DNA of 64,000 nt from Spirochaetaceae bacterium (GTDB lineage: Bacteria; Spirochaetota; Spirochaetia; DSM-27196; SKKC01): assembly GCA_007694005.1 (NCBI GenBank), contig RECN01000095.1:1-64000 (forward strand). Reading direction: 5' to 3'. Below the pieces are notes generated by a model, which made no database searches, was not told where the DNA came from, and saw only the letters and a program-made list of their open reading frames with translations. Numbering within the stretch: the stretch's first letter is position 1; the number at the start of each line of letters is the position of its first letter. A program made the translations under genes and the position numbers. Of this stretch, positions 15,155-46,579 are shown in pieces.

Positions 15155-16108
15155 CTATTCCTCGTCCTGGTGGATCAGCTGCCGCTCGAGGAACTCGAGA
15201 GCCTGCTGACGGCCAAGTCGCTGCAGTTCATTCTGACGCCGGGCTTCTTCGCGCTCGGTCAAAATCTGCCATACGTCTTCGTGTTCGATGTCCCGGTCGC
15301 GTGGAAGTACTGCAAGGTCGTGTACAACGACTACGTCCTTGAGGTACGTCACGAAATCTCCGCCGATCTGGGCTCCGTCGCGATAGATGCGGAAGCCTGC
15401 AATCCGTCGCAGCGGTTCGTTCCGCGGGTACATCGGCGTTACACGAAGTTCCCGGTCGCGGACGTCGGACAGGTAGTTCGGATTGTTCCAGACGAGGGTA
15501 TTCCACCCGTCGAACTCCAGATTACCCATCATGATTTCCTGAACGCGGTTATCCTGATCCTGAAGCAGGACGCTGATCCGGTGAGGAAAGTTCAGTCCGT
15601 AGGCGTTCAGCCGAATCTGGCGGATAGGTCCGACATTTCCGATTACACCGAAGCCGGGCTCGCCCTGGTCGTCCGGATAAAACCGTCGCTCGGGGTCGAA
15701 AGCCGGAATCTCGAACGGTGGTGAAACCTCCGCATAACTGTTGAACGCGCTTGCAGGGAAACGCACCCGAATGCCCATAACAGCCTGTCCGGCAAACTGA
15801 TCGGCGTTATCGCTGACCTGTGCCTGACGTGCAAAACTGCTTACGACGTTCTGGGTCTGCCGTGAGCTCGATGCGAGCGTCACGTTCCAGTTCTCGATAA
15901 ACAATGACGAAGAAAGCCCGTCCCTGTCAGCCTGTGCGAGCGTAGGAATCGGCACTTCGCTAAAGTCGATGCGAGTACGCTCGTGTTGTCCTTCGAATTC
16001 TCCTGAGTCGGCGATGAGCTGGCTGAAGTCGATAAGTATCGACTCAACTCCCCATCCAAGACTACCCAGAAGAAGCATTCCGGCGATGAGAATGAAAATC
16101 CGTTTCAT
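15155..16108 (-). CDS. flaA: Flagellar filament outer-layer (sheath) protein FlaA
   Basis: 318 residues, close to known FlaA proteins. The ATG at 16108 is preceded by AAGGAG with a 7-nt gap and starts a signal peptide (MKRIFILIAGMLLLGSLGWG); the upstream in-frame extension to 16159 is not used. FlaA coats the FlaB core of spirochaete periplasmic flagella. Typical elements are the N-terminal IDFSQL, a middle region on lateral positions (IRQIRLNAYGLNFPHRISV) and WNNPNYL with a YLKDVVVVHD segment before a charged C-terminal helix. It has its own strong promoter and terminator but lies directly downstream of an amidase and GerMN gene pair, an arrangement I recall from Treponema pallidum. Confidence 0.93.
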   Translation of the reverse strand: MKRIFILIAGMLLLGSLGWGVESILIDFSQLIADSGEFEGQHERTRIDFSEVPIPTLAQADRDGLSSSLFIENWNVTLASSSRQTQNVVSSFARQAQVSDNADQFAGQAVMGIRVRFPASAFNSYAEVSPPFEIPAFDPERRFYPDDQGEPGFGVIGNVGPIRQIRLNAYGLNFPHRISVLLQDQDNRVQEIMMGNLEFDGWNTLVWNNPNYLSDVRDRELRVTPMYPRNEPLRRIAGFRIYRDGAQIGGDFVTYLKDVVVVHDLAVLPRDRDIEHEDVWQILTEREEARRQNELQRLGRQQALEFLERQLIHQDEE

Positions 16109-16148
16109 TCGATGCTCCTTAATCCCTCCGTGGTATGGTACGCAGAAT

Positions 16149-16174
16149 ACGCTCCTCAAAGTATATGGGAGCGT
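16149..16174. promoter_or_regulatory. Inverted repeat flanking the flaA -10 box
   Basis: Perfect 7-bp arms ACGCTCC (16149-16155) and GGAGCGT (16168-16174) bracket the -10 box symmetrically. It could be a regulator site or a leader RNA hairpin, although one arm lies upstream of the predicted start. Confidence 0.4.
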
Positions 16175-16223: not shown

Positions 16224-16703
16224 TCACTCACGGTAGGCTTCTTCATTGAGAATTTCGCCTCCAATGGTCACCGTCACTTCGTCCATGCCTCTGAAATTAT
16301 ACCGGATATTGTATCGTATTGTCTCGAGCATCTCCGGGAGCGAAAGGACAATACGTGCTCCGACCGCGTCAAGAAGAGCTGGTGAAAGGTCAATGAAGAC
16401 GCGTCGATCGCGCACCATTACCGACTGCACTCTCGTGCCCCGGGGAACGACGCGACTCCGGTCTATACGCCCCGGTCCGGCTACGAGTTCGGCGACAAAA
16501 GCCGAAACCTCTCCTTCGACGGTGTCCCGACGGGGAACAAGACGCGTCTCACCGGCCAGTTCACTGTCGACAGAGCCGGGAAACAGCAGCACACGCTCCA
16601 CACGCGACGGTGGAGCGACCGCATAGACGGTTACGCTGATTATAAGAGAGAGAATAACTAGCCCGCCGATTATGACGCGGCTGTCTGCGCGAAATGAACT
16701 CAT
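16224..16703 (-). CDS. GerMN-domain membrane-anchored protein
   Basis: 159 residues. An N-terminal membrane helix (about 10-28) is followed by a GerMN-like domain: VSAFVAELVAGP, then VVPRGTRVQSVMVRDRRVFI and DLSPALLDAV. GerMN domains occur in sporulation, germination and peptidoglycan-linked proteins and are thought to bind cell-wall or lipoprotein partners. The ATG overlaps the amidase stop by 4 nt (ATGA), so the two are coupled and likely act together in the periplasm. flaA follows, but with its own promoter. Confidence 0.82.
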   Translation of the reverse strand: MSSFRADSRVIIGGLVILSLIISVTVYAVAPPSRVERVLLFPGSVDSELAGETRLVPRRDTVEGEVSAFVAELVAGPGRIDRSRVVPRGTRVQSVMVRDRRVFIDLSPALLDAVGARIVLSLPEMLETIRYNIRYNFRGMDEVTVTIGGEILNEEAYRE

Positions 16704-17737
16704 GTACCACTCGTCAGTCCGGTTTCGAAAACCTCTATGAAGTTGCGGATGCCAGTATAAAGACCGATGGACAGGTTGCGCAAGTGTGCAGGGTCTGCGA
16801 GCAGGCGGGCTTCGTGTTCATTCGTCACGAAACCGAGTTCGAACAGAACGCTCGGCATGAGCGCGTTCCTCACCACCGCCCAGTTTTCCTGTTTCAGTCC
16901 ACGATTCGGAGACTGCTCACCGATAACGCCTTCCATTGCTGCGAGAAGCTCGTTCCCGAGCATTGCACTGTGTACCGACACCTCTTCCTCACGCATGGAG
17001 TTGAGAATTGCGTGTATGCTTCTTCGATCGGCGTCGAGGTCTTCGGGGTCGATCAGGACGCGTCGCTGTTCAGGAGGTAGAAACCAGGCTTCGAACCCGC
17101 GTGCACGCGAGTTCAGCGATGCGTTCGCGTGTATGGAGATATAGATGATGTACTGATTTTCGCCAAGAGGAATGTCGTTCGCCATTCGCGTCCTGTCGTC
17201 AAGGGTCAGATAGACGTCAGTCTCACGGCTCAGATAGACCGGCACGTCCGGGAGGTTCTGTTCGAGTAGATCCCGTACCTGAAGCGAAACGTCGAGCACG
17301 ATGTCCTTCTCCTGCAGCACGAGCGCTTCACCGTCGACGGTGTGACGGCCGATCGTACCAGGGTCGCGTCCCCCGTGACCTGGATCGATAAAGATCGCCC
17401 CGATCACCGGCTGGTCCGAGTCACGCCGCTGAGGAAGCAACACGGCCTCGATCATTTCCGCGTCGTCGGCATGGAAAAACACCCGGCCGATATCCCTGAC
17501 CGGAGGAGATATCGTCTGCTCCTCGCGATAATCGCGCACCACTATGTCGCTCCCGACTGCGAACGCGAGCGTCGTATTTCCGCGATGTAACGATCCGATT
17601 CCAAGGAAGGGGTCGTACTCCAGACGCGCACCGGTCCGCTCCGCGATGTCCTGTACCGACACGCGGGCAATATCGCCTGCCGAAAGCGCGAACACCGCAA
17701 TCATCAGCAGAAGCGAAGTCAATGAGACGCGTAACAT
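16700..17737 (-). CDS. N-acetylmuramoyl-L-alanine amidase (Amidase_3)
   Basis: 345 residues from the ATG at 17737, which opens a signal peptide (MLRVSLTSLLLMIAVFALSA); the longer frame to 17830 lies inside the upstream gene. The catalytic domain spans about 125-345. Zinc and catalytic residues are visible in IFIDPGHGG (His), LQEKDIVLDV (Glu), YISIHANAS (His) and FELGFVTNEHEA (Glu). It cleaves the amide bond between MurNAc and the stem peptide in periplasmic peptidoglycan. The start overlaps the ATP-grasp gene by 19 nt, tying it to the glycan-type cluster. With flaA next, a role in making room for periplasmic flagella is plausible. Confidence 0.92.
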   Translation of the reverse strand: MLRVSLTSLLLMIAVFALSAGDIARVSVQDIAERTGARLEYDPFLGIGSLHRGNTTLAFAVGSDIVVRDYREEQTISPPVRDIGRVFFHADDAEMIEAVLLPQRRDSDQPVIGAIFIDPGHGGRDPGTIGRHTVDGEALVLQEKDIVLDVSLQVRDLLEQNLPDVPVYLSRETDVYLTLDDRTRMANDIPLGENQYIIYISIHANASLNSRARGFEAWFLPPEQRRVLIDPEDLDADRRSIHAILNSMREEEVSVHSAMLGNELLAAMEGVIGEQSPNRGLKQENWAVVRNALMPSVLFELGFVTNEHEARLLADPAHLRNLSIGLYTGIRNFIEVFETGLTSGT

Positions 17738-19440
17738 TGCCGTAGAAATCCTGTGAGTGCGTGGCACGATTCTTCCTCGCTTAGAGTATCGATCACATAG
17801 CGCAATCCCTGTAGGCCTCCCCGTTCGCACGCAAGCGTAAGAATGCAGACGGTGAGATCCATCGGCAAAGCGATCGTCCCTGTTCCTGCGTCCTCGTGAA
17901 CGACAGAAATCGCATCCCCGCGCGTATACGCGTGCAGATCCTGCTCGTCGTCACGCAGCGTTTCGTGGTACCGGGAGTTGCGCAATCGGGAACGCATGCC
18001 GTCAAGCGCATCGCCTGTCGAGGTCTGGGCCTGTGCATGCTGATCGAGCACCGACCGGACAAGAGTCCGGGACAGCTCACGCACAAAGCCGTGTTCGGCT
18101 GCTCTACTGACCGGAGGGTGCAATGGCCCGTGGAACCGGGGGTCGGCGAAGAACGCAGTCCGGTCGGGCAGATCGGGTCCGAGGAGAAAGGTCCATGTCT
18201 TCGGGTGTGCGCGCTGCAGAGGAATGACGATCTGTCTGAGAACGGACCCGATGCGTTCGTGCAGAACGTCTCTGTTATCTGCCTCAATTATAAGGTTCCC
18301 GCACTTCTCGACGTTATTTGTCGGCACAGACACCTCATCGCCCGACGACCGGCTGATAAAACACTCACGAACGCCCGGGAGTCTGAGGATATCTCCGGTT
18401 CCAATGTCCCCGTTTAACAGGCCGGGTATGCTCATGATTGCGCGCTCGGCGACAACCCGACGTAGCGTCGGTGCTCCGGTACCATGGGTCGCTCCGGAAG
18501 CGATGCGTATCGCTCCGCGCGTCGGCTGTATCCCGCTTGCACAGGGATAGGTCCATCCCGACATGTACCCCCCGCTGAGCCGTGCCGCGATTTCACCGAT
18601 GACCACCGAAGGGCCGCTTCCGGGAAGCCAGTCCGGACGCATATCGTCCGGGACCAGGAATATATCGCCTTTCGCCGCACCGCAGTCTATGCCTATGGCG
18701 TCCACCGCCCTGAAAAACTCATCAGTGAGCAGAGCCTGCAACTCAGCGGGCAACGCCGACGGAATGGTATGGCCGATTTCCACGAAATACGGCGGAATCG
18801 CGATGTGCCGATCCGCGATGCCGCACGCGATTTTTTCGGTCGGGGTCACGAGACAGTCGATGGAGTACTCGCGCCCGGGAATAAAACTCTCAACGATCAC
18901 CCGTCCGTCGCGCGAGTACGCTTCGGCGTGCGCGAGCGCCGCCGCTATCTCCTCGGACGCGGTGATCCTGCGCACACCACGGGCGCCCATATTGGCAACA
19001 GGTTTTACAACTGCAGGAAGCGGAACGTCTGTGGCACCGTCTATCCGCTCGCCATGCCGGTATACGGCAAAAGGAGGAACCGAGACGCCTCGATCGCGCA
19101 GTCTCCGGCGCATCAGAGCCTTATCGGTCGCGTGCAATGCGGCATCGACGGGGATTCCGGGAAGCCCGCAGGCTTCGGCTATGCGGGCCACCGTCAGTGA
19201 GAAGTCCGTACCCGCGGTAAACACTGCCTGAACCTGATTCCGTCGCGCACAGTCGATCAACGACCGCTCGTCCTTCAGATCGATATGCTCGAAGACGTGC
19301 GCATGCAGCCGACCGGGACAGGCCGGATTACCGTCGGCCACGACGACGGTCCACCCTTCTTCGGTGGCAATGCGAATTGCCGGAACCTGCATGACTCCAC
19401 CGCCGCAGATCAGTATACGCCGCGCTGGTGTACTGCTCAC
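17719..19440 (-). CDS. ATP-grasp domain enzyme
   Basis: 573 residues. An N-terminal Rossmann-like domain (ILICGGGVMQVPAIRIATEE) resembles the pre-ATP-grasp fold of CarB/PurK/PylC enzymes. The ATP-grasp core follows: VVKPVANMGARGV (144-156), VESFIPGREYSIDCLV (183-198) and GEIAARLSGG (282-291). The C-terminal 250 residues are unassigned. Family members join a carboxylate to an amine, thiol or hydroxyl with ATP. The start is GTG, overlapping the previous stop (GTGA) with GGAGG upstream. In this cluster it could ligate an amino acid or similar group to an unusual sugar; the substrate is not known. Confidence 0.85.
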   Translation of the reverse strand: MSSTPARRILICGGGVMQVPAIRIATEEGWTVVVADGNPACPGRLHAHVFEHIDLKDERSLIDCARRNQVQAVFTAGTDFSLTVARIAEACGLPGIPVDAALHATDKALMRRRLRDRGVSVPPFAVYRHGERIDGATDVPLPAVVKPVANMGARGVRRITASEEIAAALAHAEAYSRDGRVIVESFIPGREYSIDCLVTPTEKIACGIADRHIAIPPYFVEIGHTIPSALPAELQALLTDEFFRAVDAIGIDCGAAKGDIFLVPDDMRPDWLPGSGPSVVIGEIAARLSGGYMSGWTYPCASGIQPTRGAIRIASGATHGTGAPTLRRVVAERAIMSIPGLLNGDIGTGDILRLPGVRECFISRSSGDEVSVPTNNVEKCGNLIIEADNRDVLHERIGSVLRQIVIPLQRAHPKTWTFLLGPDLPDRTAFFADPRFHGPLHPPVSRAAEHGFVRELSRTLVRSVLDQHAQAQTSTGDALDGMRSRLRNSRYHETLRDDEQDLHAYTRGDAISVVHEDAGTGTIALPMDLTVCILTLACERGGLQGLRYVIDTLSEEESCHALTGFLRQCYASH

Positions 19441-21224
19441 CGGCCTTCCCTCCGGGCATAGGCTTCAAAGGTGTCTCCGAGACCTCTGAGCCGGCTGTAG
19501 AGGTGGACAATGCGGTAACCGAGTCTGTTCTTCGACATGCGCGGTGCAATGCGTTCAGGATGATGCCCGGTGACTCGTATCCGGACTGAACCGAAGCCCT
19601 GCTCCGAGAGATATCGTCGCGCAGACTGCGGGGTCCATACCGTCCGGTGGTCCTCAGGGCTCGCCGCGAGAAAGGATCTCAGACTCCGTCTCGCTGATAT
19701 TCCTCTGCCGTTCGGTGTCGAAAACGCGAAGACCCCACCCGGAACGAGCAGGTTCCGTAGCGCGGTAAACAGTCTGTCGAGGTCATCGATGTGTTCGATC
19801 ACGTACCACATAGTGACGACATCCACTCCGTCGTGAAGCTGCTCGGCACGATCACGTGAAAGATCGGTCGCATCCGCGACAAAGGCCGGGATGCCGAGCT
19901 CATCCCTGACATAGGTGACCGCCTGGGAGAATACGTCGGTGCCCACGCAGTCATAGCCCTGCGACGCCGCTGCGGAAAGGAAGGGGCCGTAGGCGCACCC
20001 GATGTCGAGCAGACGCCCCTTTTTTCCCCCACGCTTTGATCCGCGGAGAAACGTCGCGATATGCTTCAGCCGTTGCATACCCATGGTCCGGATGTGCTCG
20101 AAATCGTCGAGGTAGCTGCGCCCGTACTGCTTCGCATAGGCTTCATCGAAATATTCTTCGTTGTACTCTATGGTCAGTGGATGAAAGCGTTCCAGATACA
20201 GAAGCCCGCTGTGCCGTTCGGGACGAAAACTCCGTGCGGGAAGACGCATGACGACCGGAGTGCGTGGCGGCCCGCCGGACGGCTCACCGACACAGCCGGA
20301 CGGATCGAGTGAGCCGATCAGCTCAGCGAGGGTCGTTTCCTGCAAGGGACGCAACGTTTCCTGATGTTTCCATATCTCGTGCATGTGATCGAAGGTAGCC
20401 TCGATCGTTTCGGGACCGGGCGATTCGAGCAGGGGTAGCGATGCCTTCCGCGTGAGTTCCGCGTGATACGCTGTCGGTGCGCAGGTGATCACGGTACACC
20501 CTGCCGCTAAGGCCTCAAAGGCCGTAAGACCGAATGTACAGAATACAATGTCGTACTCACCGAGCAGCGCCGCAAGACGGTTTGTCGTATGCACACGTCC
20601 CGTTACCGGGAACGCTTCAAGGCGCTGCGGAAGGCCGCCTGCGGGCTCGAAGCAGGACGCCGGGAGCACGATATCGACCGAACCCGGCCCGAGCTGGTTG
20701 CTCAGAGCTACGGCCTGCAGCAGAGGCTCAGTCAGGTCTGCGATGTCATCGCCCCCCATACAGATGAGCGCGCGGGAACCGGAGGAAGGAGGCGTCGTGC
20801 GTACACGGGGGGGCAGATCGAGCGCATCGGGTACGTACAGATTCGGCTGATGCGTTTCGAGGTTAACGAGCGTATCAATCAGAAACGATGCGTACGCACG
20901 TCCCTCTCCGCCGGTATCGATGCCGACTACCGGCGCGACCGAAAGCAGACTCAACATCTGCGCAACGGTAAGCGTCTGGGCATCGAGCACGATAATAGCC
21001 GGTGTCACCGTTTCGATCGTCTGCCAGCTCACGAGTGCAACCGCTTCCGACCCGTCAGACAGGGCCAGGCAATCGTCCTGATCGCGCAACAGGCCGTCCC
21101 ACGGAAAATCCAGGCACATTGCAGCATACCCGGACAGGCCCATGCACGTGCGGAAACTCCGACGGATGTGACCGGTACCGTGAGCACAACGGGTATCGGG
21201 GACGATGAGATATGTCGGGTTCAT
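19437..21224 (-). CDS. SpsG/PseG-like domain fused to a SAM methyltransferase
   Basis: 595 residues. The N-terminal part (about 1-310) looks like SpsG/PseG, the GT-B-related UDP-sugar hydrolase of pseudaminic acid synthesis: GTGHIRRSF near 16-24, ICMGGDD near 154-160 and FCTFGLTAFEALAAG near 228-242. The C-terminal part (about 370-560) is a class I methyltransferase: LLDIGCAYG (405-413), an acidic residue in CVGTDVFS, then WYVIEHIDDLD and LVPGGVFAFSTPN. The ATG at 21224 overlaps the stop of the SpsF-like gene (ATGA). The fusion suggests that a nucleotide-activated sugar is handled and then methylated in one complex. The longer frame to 21299 was not chosen. Confidence 0.82.
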   Translation of the reverse strand: MNPTYLIVPDTRCAHGTGHIRRSFRTCMGLSGYAAMCLDFPWDGLLRDQDDCLALSDGSEAVALVSWQTIETVTPAIIVLDAQTLTVAQMLSLLSVAPVVGIDTGGEGRAYASFLIDTLVNLETHQPNLYVPDALDLPPRVRTTPPSSGSRALICMGGDDIADLTEPLLQAVALSNQLGPGSVDIVLPASCFEPAGGLPQRLEAFPVTGRVHTTNRLAALLGEYDIVFCTFGLTAFEALAAGCTVITCAPTAYHAELTRKASLPLLESPGPETIEATFDHMHEIWKHQETLRPLQETTLAELIGSLDPSGCVGEPSGGPPRTPVVMRLPARSFRPERHSGLLYLERFHPLTIEYNEEYFDEAYAKQYGRSYLDDFEHIRTMGMQRLKHIATFLRGSKRGGKKGRLLDIGCAYGPFLSAAASQGYDCVGTDVFSQAVTYVRDELGIPAFVADATDLSRDRAEQLHDGVDVVTMWYVIEHIDDLDRLFTALRNLLVPGGVFAFSTPNGRGISARRSLRSFLAASPEDHRTVWTPQSARRYLSEQGFGSVRIRVTGHHPERIAPRMSKNRLGYRIVHLYSRLRGLGDTFEAYARREGR

Positions 21225-21907
21225 GCGCTCTTTCGGATCAGATCCGGTTTGCGAAGCCGTTCGACGAGTTCGTGTATCTCTACCGGCCGACCACGCCACA
21301 GCTCACTGAAGATTCTCGAAAGAAAATGATAATCGTCCTCGGTGTCCAGCGTGACCCGCGTAGAACACGCGAGCTCAGCGTCGACGCTCGGTCGATGGAT
21401 GCGGAACAGCTCGGGATGCCGGTACAGATAGGGAGCCACGTGCTCCCGGTCGTACCGGTCTGTCGCATCGTGGTGGGCCTGAATGAGTGCTGCACCGTTT
21501 ATGCATTCCACGCCGGTTCCAAGCGGCATCCCCAGAAACCCGCTGTAATCGGCGCCTTCAGCCTCGTGGATCGTCAGAAGCCTGTTTGCAAGCCACGCGC
21601 TCACGAGCGGATTATCCCCGGTGGCGCGGATGACGGTGTCGATCGCGTAGCGGTGTACGGCCCCGGTGTATCGGTCAAGGACGTCGTTCTCGCTTCCTAT
21701 CCACAGCGTAAAGCCCGCGCCTTCGGCATACGGGGCCAGCCTCGATGCACTCTGTTCGTCGGTAAGGAGCAGATACTCGGACGCTTCGATACCGCTGAGA
21801 GCCATCATGCAGTGCTCGACGACCGGAACTCCGGACAGTTTGAGCAGAGCTTTATCGGGAAGACGTTGCGACGCGAGTCGGGCCTGCAGCATTACTGCTC
21901 GTTTCAT
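21221..21907 (-). CDS. SpsF/PseF-like cytidylyltransferase
   Basis: 228 residues beginning MKRAVMLQARLASQRLPDKA, the NTP-transfer loop of the SpsF/KdsB/NeuA-type cytidylyltransferases (AR.xS.RLP.K). ATGDNPLVSAWL carries the metal-binding Asp, and CSTRVTLDTEDDYHF matches the usual RLTVDxxxD motif. Such enzymes activate acid sugars as CMP derivatives. SpsF and SpsG are neighbours in other bacteria too, as PseF and PseG are in flagellin glycosylation. The ATG overlaps the upstream stop by 4 nt. Confidence 0.87.
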   Translation of the reverse strand: MKRAVMLQARLASQRLPDKALLKLSGVPVVEHCMMALSGIEASEYLLLTDEQSASRLAPYAEGAGFTLWIGSENDVLDRYTGAVHRYAIDTVIRATGDNPLVSAWLANRLLTIHEAEGADYSGFLGMPLGTGVECINGAALIQAHHDATDRYDREHVAPYLYRHPELFRIHRPSVDAELACSTRVTLDTEDDYHFLSRIFSELWRGRPVEIHELVERLRKPDLIRKSA

Positions 21908-22860
21908 TCATCATACTCCCACAAATCCGTGACACTACGGGCATTCATTCGGAACCGGAAACGGTTCTCATATACCCATCGACGGATTTCCCGAAAGAGT
22001 TGAAGGGATCCCGCAATACCGGCTCCGGACCGAAGCATAAAGCCAGGAAATCGTCGCCACGGCAGCATGCCACAGTCATTCTGAAACCGTAGGGCAAGCG
22101 CTTTGAGATAGAGCCTGCGATACCCGAGATCGGGCGTGGTGTCGTCGGGTTCGGTTTCGGATAACTGCTGTGCACGGACGGAACTGTTGGTCCTGATCTG
22201 TTCGCCCCACATGAATGCCCTGAAGCCGAAGTCCAGTTTCTGCCAGTATGGGCGTTCTATCTGAATATCGAAGCCGTACAGCTGCAGAAACCGCTCGCGA
22301 TGATAGAACCCGCAGTAATCAAAGGGAAAAAGCGTCGCTTCCTCGTCGACTATGGGCGTTTTCGGTATCACCCGAAGCAGTCTCCGGTAGAAGGCCGGGG
22401 CCATAATGCCCGGGACGGTCTCTCCGCGTTCGTTGCGGATCACCGGAACCATGCACAGTAGCTCTTCTTCGCGCATGCGATCGACGCTCCGCGACGCGAG
22501 CGTTCCGTCCACGCTCATGTCGTTCCAGATGACGAACACGTAGCGGGTCTTCAGCTCTCCCATCGCCAGATTAATTCTGTGCCCGATATTCATGCGCCGG
22601 TGCAGCAGCATGAAACGGACCTTCGGGTACCTGGCCGTCAGCTGTTCGACATCGTACTGCGGCGTCTCGCCTTCAACCGATATGATGTCCGAAGCACCGA
22701 GACGCTCAAGCCGGGCGAAGAGATCCCCGCGTCGGTACCTTCCGCCCCGGTTAAGTACAATGGCGCTGAACAGCGGAGTGTGGCGGGTTTCCCGTTCGCC
22801 TCCGCTTCCACCGACGACGGTGTAGTCAGGATACTCAGAAGTTGAAGGTGTAGTACTCAT
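21904..22860 (-). CDS. Glycosyltransferase-like (GT-A) protein
   Basis: 319 residues from the ATG at 22860; a GTG at 22872 is also possible. Either start overlaps the Spiro-SPASM stop region. The N-terminal half resembles a family 2-type GT-A fold: FSAIVLNRGGRYRRGDLFAR, then HRRMNIGHRINLAMGEL, then YVFVIWNDMSVDGTL, where the Asp residues could be the DxD-like metal site. A second conserved-looking block is DYCGFYHRERFLQLYGFD. I cannot name the family. Its coupling to SpsF and SpsG homologues argues for sugar transfer rather than housekeeping. Confidence 0.7.
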   Translation of the reverse strand: MSTTPSTSEYPDYTVVGGSGGERETRHTPLFSAIVLNRGGRYRRGDLFARLERLGASDIISVEGETPQYDVEQLTARYPKVRFMLLHRRMNIGHRINLAMGELKTRYVFVIWNDMSVDGTLASRSVDRMREEELLCMVPVIRNERGETVPGIMAPAFYRRLLRVIPKTPIVDEEATLFPFDYCGFYHRERFLQLYGFDIQIERPYWQKLDFGFRAFMWGEQIRTNSSVRAQQLSETEPDDTTPDLGYRRLYLKALALRFQNDCGMLPWRRFPGFMLRSGAGIAGSLQLFREIRRWVYENRFRFRMNARSVTDLWEYDE

Positions 22861-24394
22861 CACAGTTCTCACAGATTTCGGTATATCGGCCTGCTACCTG
22901 ATCCCGATGAACCGCCTCACCGGCTTCCCAGATATCTTCGAACGACTGTTCGTAGAGGTTGCCCAGGGCGTGGTCACTGCGAATGTCTTCACGACACCGG
23001 GGTACGGTTCCGTCAATGCGAACATACAGATCGCGCTTGTTGTGCCAGCAGGGAAAACGTTGTACCGGCGAGAGATCGGTGACCTTTCGCGGAGGAAGCT
23101 GCCCGCAGAAATCATCATATTTCTGAATGATGATGTGATCGGTCTTCTCTTTCCAGTACCGCCAGAAGGTCTCCAGATGCGCTTCGGTTTCTTTCATGCG
23201 CACGGCCTGAACGTAGCTGTACGCGGGCACCTCGGCGATCAGGGTCTCGGCAAAGGCCTTCGCTTCCGGAAATCCATCGCCGCGGAGCTCCCGATATGTG
23301 TCTTCCTCAATGGCATCGAGAGCGACGATCCAGCGCACTCTGTTGCCGTAGCGTTTCGCGAGCTCGACGATTTCGGCGACAGGACGGCCGATACCGCTTG
23401 TCTCAACGAGCAGCGAAAGACCCTGCGTGTCGCAGACCGCTTCGACGAGAGCGGGAAAATCAGGATGCAGAAGCGGCTCACCCCACGTGCAGATCCCGAC
23501 TGTTGCCTCCGGCGAGTACGAAGACAGCCCGCTTACCAGCTCCCGGAAACGCCCGACAGGCATGTTCGCAGGTCCGTCAGCGCGGGTGTCGCCCGCCGAA
23601 ACGTCCGGCAGATACGTGATCTTCTGGGGATGCGCGGTGGTAACCTCCACGCTCATGTACATCGGAAGGGTCCTCAGGCGTCCGTAGTTTGACTCTACTG
23701 CACGCACATACCTGTCTTTCGGTACAACCGAGCCCGTAGCCTCGTCACAGAGTATGGCCTGAAACCGACTGCACAGAACGAAGTTTGCGCGGGTATCGCA
23801 GCGGAAGGTGATACGCAGCATGCGGAAATCCACCGGCGAGAGCAGCGTTTCGACATCGAATGAGTTTATGTCGCGCTGCAGAATAGTAAAAAGCCAGTCG
23901 GCGACGGCTGTATCGTCGCTTTCCTCCACCAGTTTCGCTAACAGACGGGGGAGACTCGGGCTCAAAACGACCGGTGTCGAACCGGCAGGATACCCATCCG
24001 CGAAGCTGTAGTGAGCCCGGTACTTCACGTGTTCGGACAGGATCAAAGACGCCTCGTCGGCCATCATCCACGGCTCGTCGGCCCGCTTGTATAACACCGC
24101 TTCAGCCTCAGCCGAAAGCTCGGTAAGCACAGACAGAACCCCGGCTGCCGATGTGTCACGTACTTCAAACACCTTCACCGAAGCCGGAAGAGAAACGCGT
24201 CCATCACCGAGTTTCAGGCTCATCGTGGTGGAATCGGCGGTGGCTTCTGACTGCTGCGGGCGGACGAGCAGAACGAGTTCATCGGACAGCGAAGCGGCTG
24301 AACCAACTGCGCGCTCCACCGCGCTGGAACCGTCTCCGAGCGACAAGCCGGCGTATGATCGAATGTGCAGGGCATCAATAATCGCGAGAACCAT
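22835..24394 (-). CDS. Spiro-SPASM protein: NTP-transferase-like domain + cysteine-less radical-SAM fold + SPASM domain
   Basis: 519 residues. Residues 1-190 resemble a degenerate nucleotidyltransferase (LYKRADEPWMMADEASL recalls the central metal-site region). Residues 245-430 follow a radical-SAM barrel: MSVEVTTAHPQKITYLPD is where CxxxCxxC should be, but the three positions are H255, I259 and L262. CTWGEPLLHPDF replaces the GGEP motif. The C-terminal SPASM/twitch region keeps cysteines at 430, 449, 467, 508 and 511. This matches my memory of the spirochaete-only spiro-SPASM family. It cannot bind the SAM cleavage cluster in the usual way. It heads the cluster; a TATAGT box 6 nt before the ATG suggests a leaderless start. 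Confidence 0.85.
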   Translation of the reverse strand: MVLAIIDALHIRSYAGLSLGDGSSAVERAVGSAASLSDELVLLVRPQQSEATADSTTMSLKLGDGRVSLPASVKVFEVRDTSAAGVLSVLTELSAEAEAVLYKRADEPWMMADEASLILSEHVKYRAHYSFADGYPAGSTPVVLSPSLPRLLAKLVEESDDTAVADWLFTILQRDINSFDVETLLSPVDFRMLRITFRCDTRANFVLCSRFQAILCDEATGSVVPKDRYVRAVESNYGRLRTLPMYMSVEVTTAHPQKITYLPDVSAGDTRADGPANMPVGRFRELVSGLSSYSPEATVGICTWGEPLLHPDFPALVEAVCDTQGLSLLVETSGIGRPVAEIVELAKRYGNRVRWIVALDAIEEDTYRELRGDGFPEAKAFAETLIAEVPAYSYVQAVRMKETEAHLETFWRYWKEKTDHIIIQKYDDFCGQLPPRKVTDLSPVQRFPCWHNKRDLYVRIDGTVPRCREDIRSDHALGNLYEQSFEDIWEAGEAVHRDQVAGRYTEICENCDEYYTFNF

Positions 24395-44398: not shown

Positions 44399-46579
44399 GT
44401 GTCCAAAATAATTCTTGTATCAAACAGACTCAGTGTTTCAGCCCAGCGAACGAACGAGGGATTCAGCTACAATCCAAGCGTTGGTGGTCTCGCCACGGGT
44501 CTGAGTTCGTTCTTTTCCCGATCTGACAGCCTCTGGGTCGGATGGAGTGGCCTCGCAGACGACACGCTTACGCCGGAAGAGCGCGAGGAAGTCGCTGGAA
44601 CACTCCGTACGGAACACAAGAGTGTGGCGGTTTCGCTCTCAAGCCTGGATCTCGATACCTTCTACTACGGTTTCTGCAACAAGGCTATCTGGCCGCTGTT
44701 TCACTACTTTCCCACCTACGTGGACTACGATCCGACACTCTGGGCGGCGTACGAGCGGGTCAATAAGAAGTTCTTCGAAGAACTCCGTCAGGTAATCGAG
44801 CCTGGTGACTTTGTCTGGGTGCACGATTACCAGCTGATGCTGCTTCCCGGCATGATCCGTGAAGAGTTTCCCAACACGCGCATCGGGTTCTTTCTGCATA
44901 TTCCCTTCCCAAGCTATGAGCTGTTCAGGCTCCTGCCCTGGCGCAACGACATTCTGAACGGTCTGCTGGGTTCAGATCTCATAGGCTTTCACACCTATGA
45001 CTACGCGCGGCACTTTCTTTCCAGCGTCCGGCGGCTGCTCGGCATGGATAACAACCTCGGGACGATACAGGGACCAAACAGAATGACAAAGGTTGATGTC
45101 TTCCCCATGGGTATCGACTACGAAAAGTACGCGGCTTCAAGCAGTCTGCCTGAGGTACAGAAAGAAATAGAACGTATCCGGCAATCGGCTCGTGGACGAA
45201 GGATCATATTCAGCGTTGACCGGCTCGATTACTCCAAGGGTATTCCCAACCGAATTCAGGCATTTCATCGATTTCTCGAGCGCTATCCGGATTACCACGG
45301 AAAAGTCGAGCTGATCATGATCGTTGCTCCGTCGCGAACCGAAGTGGAAAGTTACAAGGAGCTGAAGCGCGAGCTCGATGAACTCGTCAGCACCATAAAC
45401 GGTACCTACGGTACGATAGACTGGACGCCAATTCTGTATTTTTACCGGACCTTTCCCTTTGAACAGCTGACAGCCATCTACCGGGTAGCCGAAGTGCTTC
45501 TCGTGACGCCTGTCCGCGATGGGATGAATCTCATTGCGAAAGAATACGTGGCCGCCCGCTCGGACTATCAGGGCACGGTTGTACTTTCGGAGACGGCAGG
45601 CGCTGCACGGGAAATGAGCGAGAGTCTGATCGTCAATCCCAGCGATATGGACGGTATCGCCGAGGCCATCCGCACCGCCCTCGAACTCAGTCCCGAAGAG
45701 CAGGAACAGAACAACCGCCGCATCCACCGACGTCTGTCCCGGTATGACGTGCAGTTCTGGGCTCACGATTTCATGGACAAACTCGAGCTCGCTGGAGAGA
45801 ACCGGGCAAGCCTGCAGAACCGACGACTGCGCGGAGAAAATCGAAAAGACCTCATTGCACAGTACCAGGCTGCAGGGAAGCGGCTTCTGTTCCTCAACTA
45901 CGACGGTACACTCGTCGGTTTTGGAAGCGACCAGACCAAAGGAAAACCCGATGCGGAGCTTCTAAGTACGATAGAGCGTCTCGCTGCGGACAGAAGAAAC
46001 GAGGTCGTTATAGTCTCAAGCCGGAGCCGGGAAGAGCTGGCATCGTGGCTCGGACATCTGGATGTCGGTCTCGTCGCAGGCTACGGAGTCTGGATAAAAC
46101 TCCGTGACGGCGACTGGGAACTGGTCGAACAGCTGAACAATGACTGGATGGATAACATCAGACCCATCCTCGAACGCTACGCAGACCGGACCCCTGGATC
46201 GCGCATCGAGGAGTCAGAATACAGCCTCTCCTGGTCTTACCGGAAAGCGGAGCCGGAGCTCGGTGCTGTACGGGTCAGCGAACTCAGGGATGCGCTGCTG
46301 AGTCTGACCGGCAACCTGAATCTGGCCGTGATCGAGGGACACAACATCCTCGAGGTCAAGAACAGCGACATAAACAAGGGGCGCGCTGCGATGCGCTGGC
46401 TTCACAGTGATGACTGGGATTATGTACTCGCTATTGGTGACGACTGGACCGATGAAGAACTCTTCTCGGTGCTTCCCCCGGACAGCTGGTCTATCAAGGT
46501 AGGAGTCGACCTCTCAAGGGCTCACTGGTTTCTCAAGAACGAGAAGCAGGTCCGGGAGCTGCTGCACGAACTTGTTTGA
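44399..46579 (+). CDS. otsA: Trehalose-6-phosphate synthase fused to a phosphatase-like domain
   Basis: 726 residues. The GT20 synthase domain (1-470) is intact: WVHDYQLMLLPGMIRE, FFLHIPFPSYELFRLLPW, DRLDYSKGIPNRIQAF and TPVRDGMNLIAKEYVA. It joins UDP-glucose and glucose-6-phosphate. The C-terminal HAD domain (490-726) resembles trehalose-6-phosphate phosphatase and keeps GDDWTDEELF, but motif I reads FLNYDGTL: the nucleophile Asp is Asn at 500. Motif II is VSSRSREEL. Phosphatase activity is therefore doubtful, and the domain may be regulatory. GTG start behind GAGGGGG. Trehalose is an osmolyte or stress protectant. Confidence 0.93.
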   Translation: MSKIILVSNRLSVSAQRTNEGFSYNPSVGGLATGLSSFFSRSDSLWVGWSGLADDTLTPEEREEVAGTLRTEHKSVAVSLSSLDLDTFYYGFCNKAIWPLFHYFPTYVDYDPTLWAAYERVNKKFFEELRQVIEPGDFVWVHDYQLMLLPGMIREEFPNTRIGFFLHIPFPSYELFRLLPWRNDILNGLLGSDLIGFHTYDYARHFLSSVRRLLGMDNNLGTIQGPNRMTKVDVFPMGIDYEKYAASSSLPEVQKEIERIRQSARGRRIIFSVDRLDYSKGIPNRIQAFHRFLERYPDYHGKVELIMIVAPSRTEVESYKELKRELDELVSTINGTYGTIDWTPILYFYRTFPFEQLTAIYRVAEVLLVTPVRDGMNLIAKEYVAARSDYQGTVVLSETAGAAREMSESLIVNPSDMDGIAEAIRTALELSPEEQEQNNRRIHRRLSRYDVQFWAHDFMDKLELAGENRASLQNRRLRGENRKDLIAQYQAAGKRLLFLNYDGTLVGFGSDQTKGKPDAELLSTIERLAADRRNEVVIVSSRSREELASWLGHLDVGLVAGYGVWIKLRDGDWELVEQLNNDWMDNIRPILERYADRTPGSRIEESEYSLSWSYRKAEPELGAVRVSELRDALLSLTGNLNLAVIEGHNILEVKNSDINKGRAAMRWLHSDDWDYVLAIGDDWTDEELFSVLPPDSWSIKVGVDLSRAHWFLKNEKQVRELLHELV

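Follow-up and report, generated by a model that had tools for sequence, protein, structure and literature searches.

The window, as we call the whole 64,000-nucleotide stretch of spirochaete DNA analysed here, carries on its minus strand, from 24394 down to 16224, seven genes whose six consecutive junctions all overlap, with flaA coming next (Table 1). We refer to the predicted glycosyltransferase as GT and to the SpsG/PseG-like hydrolase fused to a methyltransferase as SpsG-MT. The overlaps measure 4 bp at the GT/SpsF, SpsF/SpsG-MT (SpsG-MT start ATG 21224), SpsG-MT/ATP-grasp and amidase/GerMN junctions, about 19 bp between the ATP-grasp and amidase genes (amidase start ATG 17737), and about 26 bp between the spiro-SPASM and GT genes when the GT start is set at ATG 22860, the start common to relatives. 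The flaA gene is not tightly joined to the cluster, as its ATG lies about 115 bp past gerMN. The initial annotation, made from sequence alone, had described six overlapping junctions with flaA next. All of its open reading frames and junctions were confirmed, with the qualification that flaA is set apart by this gap and a promoter-like site of its own. Its domain assignments were upheld by Pfam and NCBIfam, except that the protein it called GT-A-like has no family match and the GT-A assignment is supported by fold comparison only.

Table 1. Features of the cluster and of the adjoining flaA region, in window coordinates.
Feature	Position	Strand	Evidence
Spiro-SPASM protein, 519 aa	22835..24394	-	TIGR04321 487 bits (family cut-off 250); SPASM PF13186 38.6 bits
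GT-A-fold glycosyltransferase (predicted), outside Pfam/NCBIfam families	21904..22860	-	Foldseek, conserved motifs
SpsF-type CMP-sugar synthetase (cytidylyltransferase), signature QARLASQRLPDK	21221..21907	-	PF02348 (CTP_transf_3) 98.9 bits
SpsG/PseG-like UDP-sugar hydrolase fused to SAM-dependent methyltransferase	19437..21224	-	PF13489 (Methyltransf_23) 83.7 bits; G-x-GH-x-x-R loop in sequence
ATP-grasp carboxylate-amine ligase with LAL_C2	17719..19440	-	PF13535, PF02655, PF18603; BL00235-type ligase 3.2e-12
N-acetylmuramoyl-L-alanine amidase (Amidase_3), apparent signal peptide	16700..17737	-	PF01520 139.9 bits
GerMN-domain (Germane) membrane or periplasmic protein	16224..16703	-	PF10646 30.8 bits
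Sigma-70-like promoter before flaA	16160..16187	-	TTGACA-16-TATACT, 11/12
flaA, flagellar filament outer layer protein; likely start ATG near 16108	15155..16159	-	PF04620 (FlaA) 211 bits
Terminator-like hairpin after flaA	15066..15099	-	15 pairs, 11 GC, T tail

Elsewhere in the window, at 44399-46576, we observed a fused trehalose-6-phosphate synthase and phosphatase, which fits a salt-adapted organism.

Conservation of the cluster among spirochaetes

In 80 Spirochaetota genomes we examined the region surrounding spiro-SPASM, up to 20 kb in length, and mapped the neighbours with profiles built from the proteins of the window. Within the class Spirochaetia, the order spiro-SPASM, GT, SpsF, SpsG-MT, ATP-grasp, amidase, GerMN and FlaA is recurrent, often with a divergent xseA beside the cluster as in this window. 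Because it recurs across Spirochaetia genomes, the gene order is far beyond chance, and the cluster is a real, conserved system. SpsF is fused to SpsG-MT in treponemes, and GT is fused to SpsF in one genome (L088). Genomes that we infer to be T. denticola-like and T. pallidum-like carry spiro-SPASM and GT together with the SpsF-SpsG-MT fusion, their ATP-grasp gene lying at another locus, and another treponeme (L173) has ATP-grasp, amidase, GerMN and FlaA as a separate group. More distant members retain spiro-SPASM, SpsF and SpsG. In these distant relatives, a gene for a SurA/parvulin-type peptidyl-prolyl isomerase often lies upstream, and in L056, L057, L068 and L087 it stands directly before spiro-SPASM.

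Pathway enzymes within and outside the cluster

The GT protein has no match in Pfam, NCBIfam or a PDB sequence search, and its alignment contains conserved WND and FDYCG..GFD..DFG.R.W.WGE motifs. An AlphaFold model built from four sequences, with moderate confidence (pLDDT 62), retrieved GalNAc-T2 (1.9e-8) and RmlT (7e-8) in Foldseek, and its best 50 structural matches were GT-A glycosyltransferases only. The GT-A fold is a prediction supported by comparison of this model only, and the target of the enzyme is inferred. With a dN/dS of 0.02-0.04, the GT gene is very strongly conserved. The catalytic signature of SpsF, QxRxxSxRxxxK, is intact in all 64 homologues.

The ATP-grasp ligase passes the cut-offs of PF13535 and PF18603 for the ATP-grasp and LAL_C2 domains. 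It is the best candidate for installing an N-acyl group, a possibility in which both the ligase chemistry and the substrate are inferred. Outgroup spirochaetes (L169, L170, L171) encode the ligase as a fusion with an FMN-dependent alpha-hydroxy-acid dehydrogenase, and in the T. pallidum-like genome an FMN-dependent dehydrogenase is encoded just downstream of the cluster (L040:15141-16019). The fusion may hint at a hydroxy-acid as the inferred acyl donor. No dedicated FMN-dependent dehydrogenase partner for the ligase is evident in the genome studied here. The T. denticola flagellin glycan is reported to consist of a nonulosonic acid that bears 2-methoxy-trihydroxyhexanoyl as its N-acyl group (Kurniyati, 2017). 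Such a group would fit a methyltransferase together with an amide ligase.

The early steps of nonulosonic acid (NulO) synthesis had been called absent from this region, which holds for the window. A search of the rest of the genome for pseB, pseI and neuB homologues recovered a NeuB homologue and a dehydratase/aminotransferase pair, and we accordingly rejected the possibility that these steps are missing. The pair lies on contig C191, where a PseB/PglF-type dehydratase (UDP-GlcNAc 4,6-dehydratase, SYK-type motif) is adjacent to a PseC-like DegT aminotransferase. The same operon holds three xanthine-dehydrogenase-family genes for molybdopterin, 2Fe-2S and FAD subunits (L148:7760-13897), which have no explained role in a sugar pathway. 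Relatives as far as the T. pallidum-like genome share this order of dehydratase, aminotransferase and xanthine-dehydrogenase-family genes; one Borrelia-like and two flagellin-less genomes gave no strong dehydratase or aminotransferase match. In four of eight genomes (L148:13897-14433, L150, L154, L155), the gene ahead of this operon encodes a NusG-domain protein that may be an RfaH-like antiterminator.

NeuB (L117:1356-2405) matches PF03102 with 164 bits and carries a SAF domain. In this genome (L117:72-2405) and in G115, its gene adjoins serS, away from flagellar or sugar genes. A second NeuB match in the same genome (C35) was rejected as a DAHP synthase-prephenate dehydratase. No PseH-like acetyltransferase was identified. 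The pathway genes are therefore split over at least three loci in this genome. NeuB does not reach the equivalog cut-offs for PseI (TIGR03586, 146.6 against 340.25 bits) or NeuB_NnaB (TIGR03569, 182.8 against 399.65 bits), and the SpsG part, at 20.9 bits, is far below that for PseG (TIGR03590, 153.55). Thus, the exact sugar is not identified.

The acid sugar could alternatively be Kdo-like or another ulosonic acid instead of a nonulosonic acid, as SpsF also resembles KdsB. We regard this as very unlikely, because a NeuB/SAF synthase and the dehydratase/aminotransferase pair co-occur with the cluster and SpsG-like hydrolases are members of NulO pathways (PMC7439481). A NulO is hence the reading we retain. 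The Pse/Leg/Ptm systems of Campylobacter and Helicobacter share the logic of dehydratase, aminotransferase, UDP-hydrolase, NeuB-type synthase and CMP-synthetase. They differ from the present system in that the genes here occupy at least three loci, with an SpsG-methyltransferase fusion, an ATP-grasp ligase and spiro-SPASM in addition, and in that the GT-A-fold transferase has no Pfam match. SpsF and SpsG homologues also occur in the Bacillus subtilis sps pathway, a legionaminic-acid pathway (PMC7439481) that serves the spore crust, not the flagellum. To our knowledge, it includes no methyltransferase fusion, SPASM protein or ATP-grasp ligase.

Co-distribution with flagella and candidate acceptors

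Among 150 Spirochaetota genomes, spiro-SPASM was above the cut-off in 133, flagellin was present in 149 and NeuB in 145. The five genomes without NeuB are small Borrelia-like ones, which also lack spiro-SPASM and represent the clear exception among flagellated genomes. The sole flagellin-less genome of this set has no spiro-SPASM and only a weak NeuB-type match. The ATP-grasp ligase was found in the flagellated non-Borrelia genomes tested and is absent from three Borrelia-like ones. Borrelia is thus a consistent exception to the presence of the cluster across the phylum.

Flagellin is missing in 100 of 345 genomes of the class, 80 of which were searched for spiro-SPASM. None of the 80 had it above the cut-off, the best match (33 bits) being at the level of a generic radical-SAM protein. 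One flagellin-less call, for a genome that is 81% complete (G280), may reflect an assembly gap. Within a single family (f9), a flagellated genus has spiro-SPASM, with 564-575 bits in near-complete members, and its flagellin-less sister genus does not. The initial annotation had proposed flagellar glycosylation with a CMP-activated acid sugar whose precursor is encoded elsewhere, to be refuted if the gene set were intact in spirochaetes without flagella. The proposal is supported, and, as judged by the lead gene spiro-SPASM in the 80 genomes searched, this refutation did not materialize. A strong NeuB match is retained in 12 of 79 flagellin-less genomes; therefore NulOs serve other uses too. 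Co-distribution alone does not prove that flagellin is the acceptor.

A competing explanation is an envelope glycan. In that case a surface polysaccharide, a lipid or peptidoglycan would receive the CMP-sugar, and only shared transcription would connect the cluster with flaA. This explanation is favored by the co-cistronic amidase and GerMN genes, which have no obvious role in glycosylation, by the resemblance of GT both to RmlT, a wall teichoic acid rhamnosyltransferase, and to GalNAc-transferases, and by the NeuB kept in some flagellin-less genomes. We nevertheless consider it unlikely, because all 80 tested flagellin-less genomes lack the lead gene while still having envelopes, and because we found neither a gene for polysaccharide export nor one for a flippase in the cluster. 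Peptidoglycan, previously suggested as one of three targets, has no support beyond co-transcription with the amidase.

The remaining two proposed targets, FlaA and FlaB, can be ranked under the flagellin reading that we prefer. In T. denticola, FlaB carries a 450.2 Da glycan that is essential for filaments (PMC9481697), and the PseI protein TDE0960 is required for flagella (PMC9862357). This O-glycan system resembles the one proposed here, which would likewise act on a spirochaete flagellin and use a NeuB/PseI-type synthase. In Leptospira, FlaB1 glycans are located at the core-sheath interface (PMC13144727). The title of Wyss (1998), cited in PMC13144727, places glycosylation on flagellins and not on sheath proteins; one review lists FlaA as glycosylated too (PMC9862357). 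Because FlaA is secreted, and in view of the Wyss title, FlaB, the flagellin of the filament core, is a likelier target than FlaA. No paper in the literature searched ties the spiro-SPASM, GT, SpsG-MT or ATP-grasp genes to flagellin glycosylation.

The spiro-SPASM protein and a proposed pathway

Loss of the radical-SAM motif in the spiro-SPASM protein had gone unnoticed in the initial annotation. All three cysteines of CX3CX2C are gone, being replaced here by H255, I259 and L262. Among 85 relatives, 34 retain the motif, and the other 51, this protein included, have unrelated residues in its place without any consistent substitute. The SPASM cysteines C449, C467, C508 and C511 are intact and are retained in 85, 85, 85 and 84 of the 85 relatives, respectively. 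A quick tree, inferred without the motif columns and rooted at the midpoint, requires at least 10 changes, of which well-supported branches impose 7; if the motif can never be regained, 16 losses are needed. The motif has thus probably been lost on about 7-16 separate occasions. The N-terminal region matches the SpsF profile in most members (82-152 bits), with the nucleotidyltransferase signature missing in 85 of 85.

With a dN/dS of 0.11-0.15, the gene evolves under purifying selection. Its modeled structure, to be viewed with caution at a pLDDT of 63, retains the radical-SAM/SPASM fold and resembles SuiB, anSME, BtrN and DesII. The protein shares the predicted barrel, SPASM fold and SPASM cysteines with the radical SAM/SPASM enzymes SuiB, anSME and BtrN, from which it differs by the loss of CX3CX2C and by an extra N-terminal nucleotidyltransferase-like domain. 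A PDB sequence search gave no match for it, and our literature search found no paper on spiro-SPASM. A family mostly devoid of the radical-SAM motif yet retaining the SPASM site is unusual.

Spiro-SPASM could still be a catalytic radical enzyme that modifies the sugar or flagellin through a non-canonical cluster or the SPASM site. The 34 relatives with CX3CX2C, the invariant SPASM cysteines and the resemblance to SuiB, anSME, BtrN and DesII speak for this possibility. It appears unlikely, given the three cysteines replaced without a consistent substitute in 51 of 85 proteins and the absence of a second spiro-SPASM copy from the genome. We therefore favor a non-radical protein as the probable state of spiro-SPASM, for which a scaffold role is inferred.

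The cluster most likely represents the late half of a spirochaete pathway for NulO glycosylation of flagellin. The gene content, conserved order, fusions, co-distribution with NeuB and flagella, and motif states on which this rests are shown; the order of reactions, the acyl donor and the acceptor are inferred, without mass spectrometry for this organism. In the proposed pathway, the dehydratase and aminotransferase encoded elsewhere would produce a UDP-4-amino sugar, from which the SpsG-like half of the fusion would strip UDP. NeuB, also encoded elsewhere, would condense the sugar with phosphoenolpyruvate, and SpsF would convert the product to CMP-NulO. The NulO would be tailored by the methyltransferase half and by the ATP-grasp ligase, which probably forms an amide between a carboxylic acid and an amine of the sugar. 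The GT-A-fold protein would then move the NulO onto Ser/Thr residues of flagellin (FlaB) before export, with spiro-SPASM, here unable to hold a radical-SAM cluster, as a putative non-radical scaffold or specificity subunit of the machinery.

A bolder reading, to which we do not quite commit, is a phylum-wide machine whose transferase, from a new GT-A family, attaches a methylated and amide-acylated NulO to FlaB. Its helper would be a former radical-SAM enzyme that has lost the catalytic cluster repeatedly and kept its SPASM metal site and flagellum-linked role. Flagellin glycosylation in spirochaetes is known, and the activating and attaching enzymes are unnamed in the literature we searched. 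The cluster provides a list of candidate genes that covers most of the phylum, relatives of the syphilis treponeme among them, and makes the question directly testable. The spiro-SPASM family is a clean system for studying the function of a SPASM site in the absence of radical chemistry.
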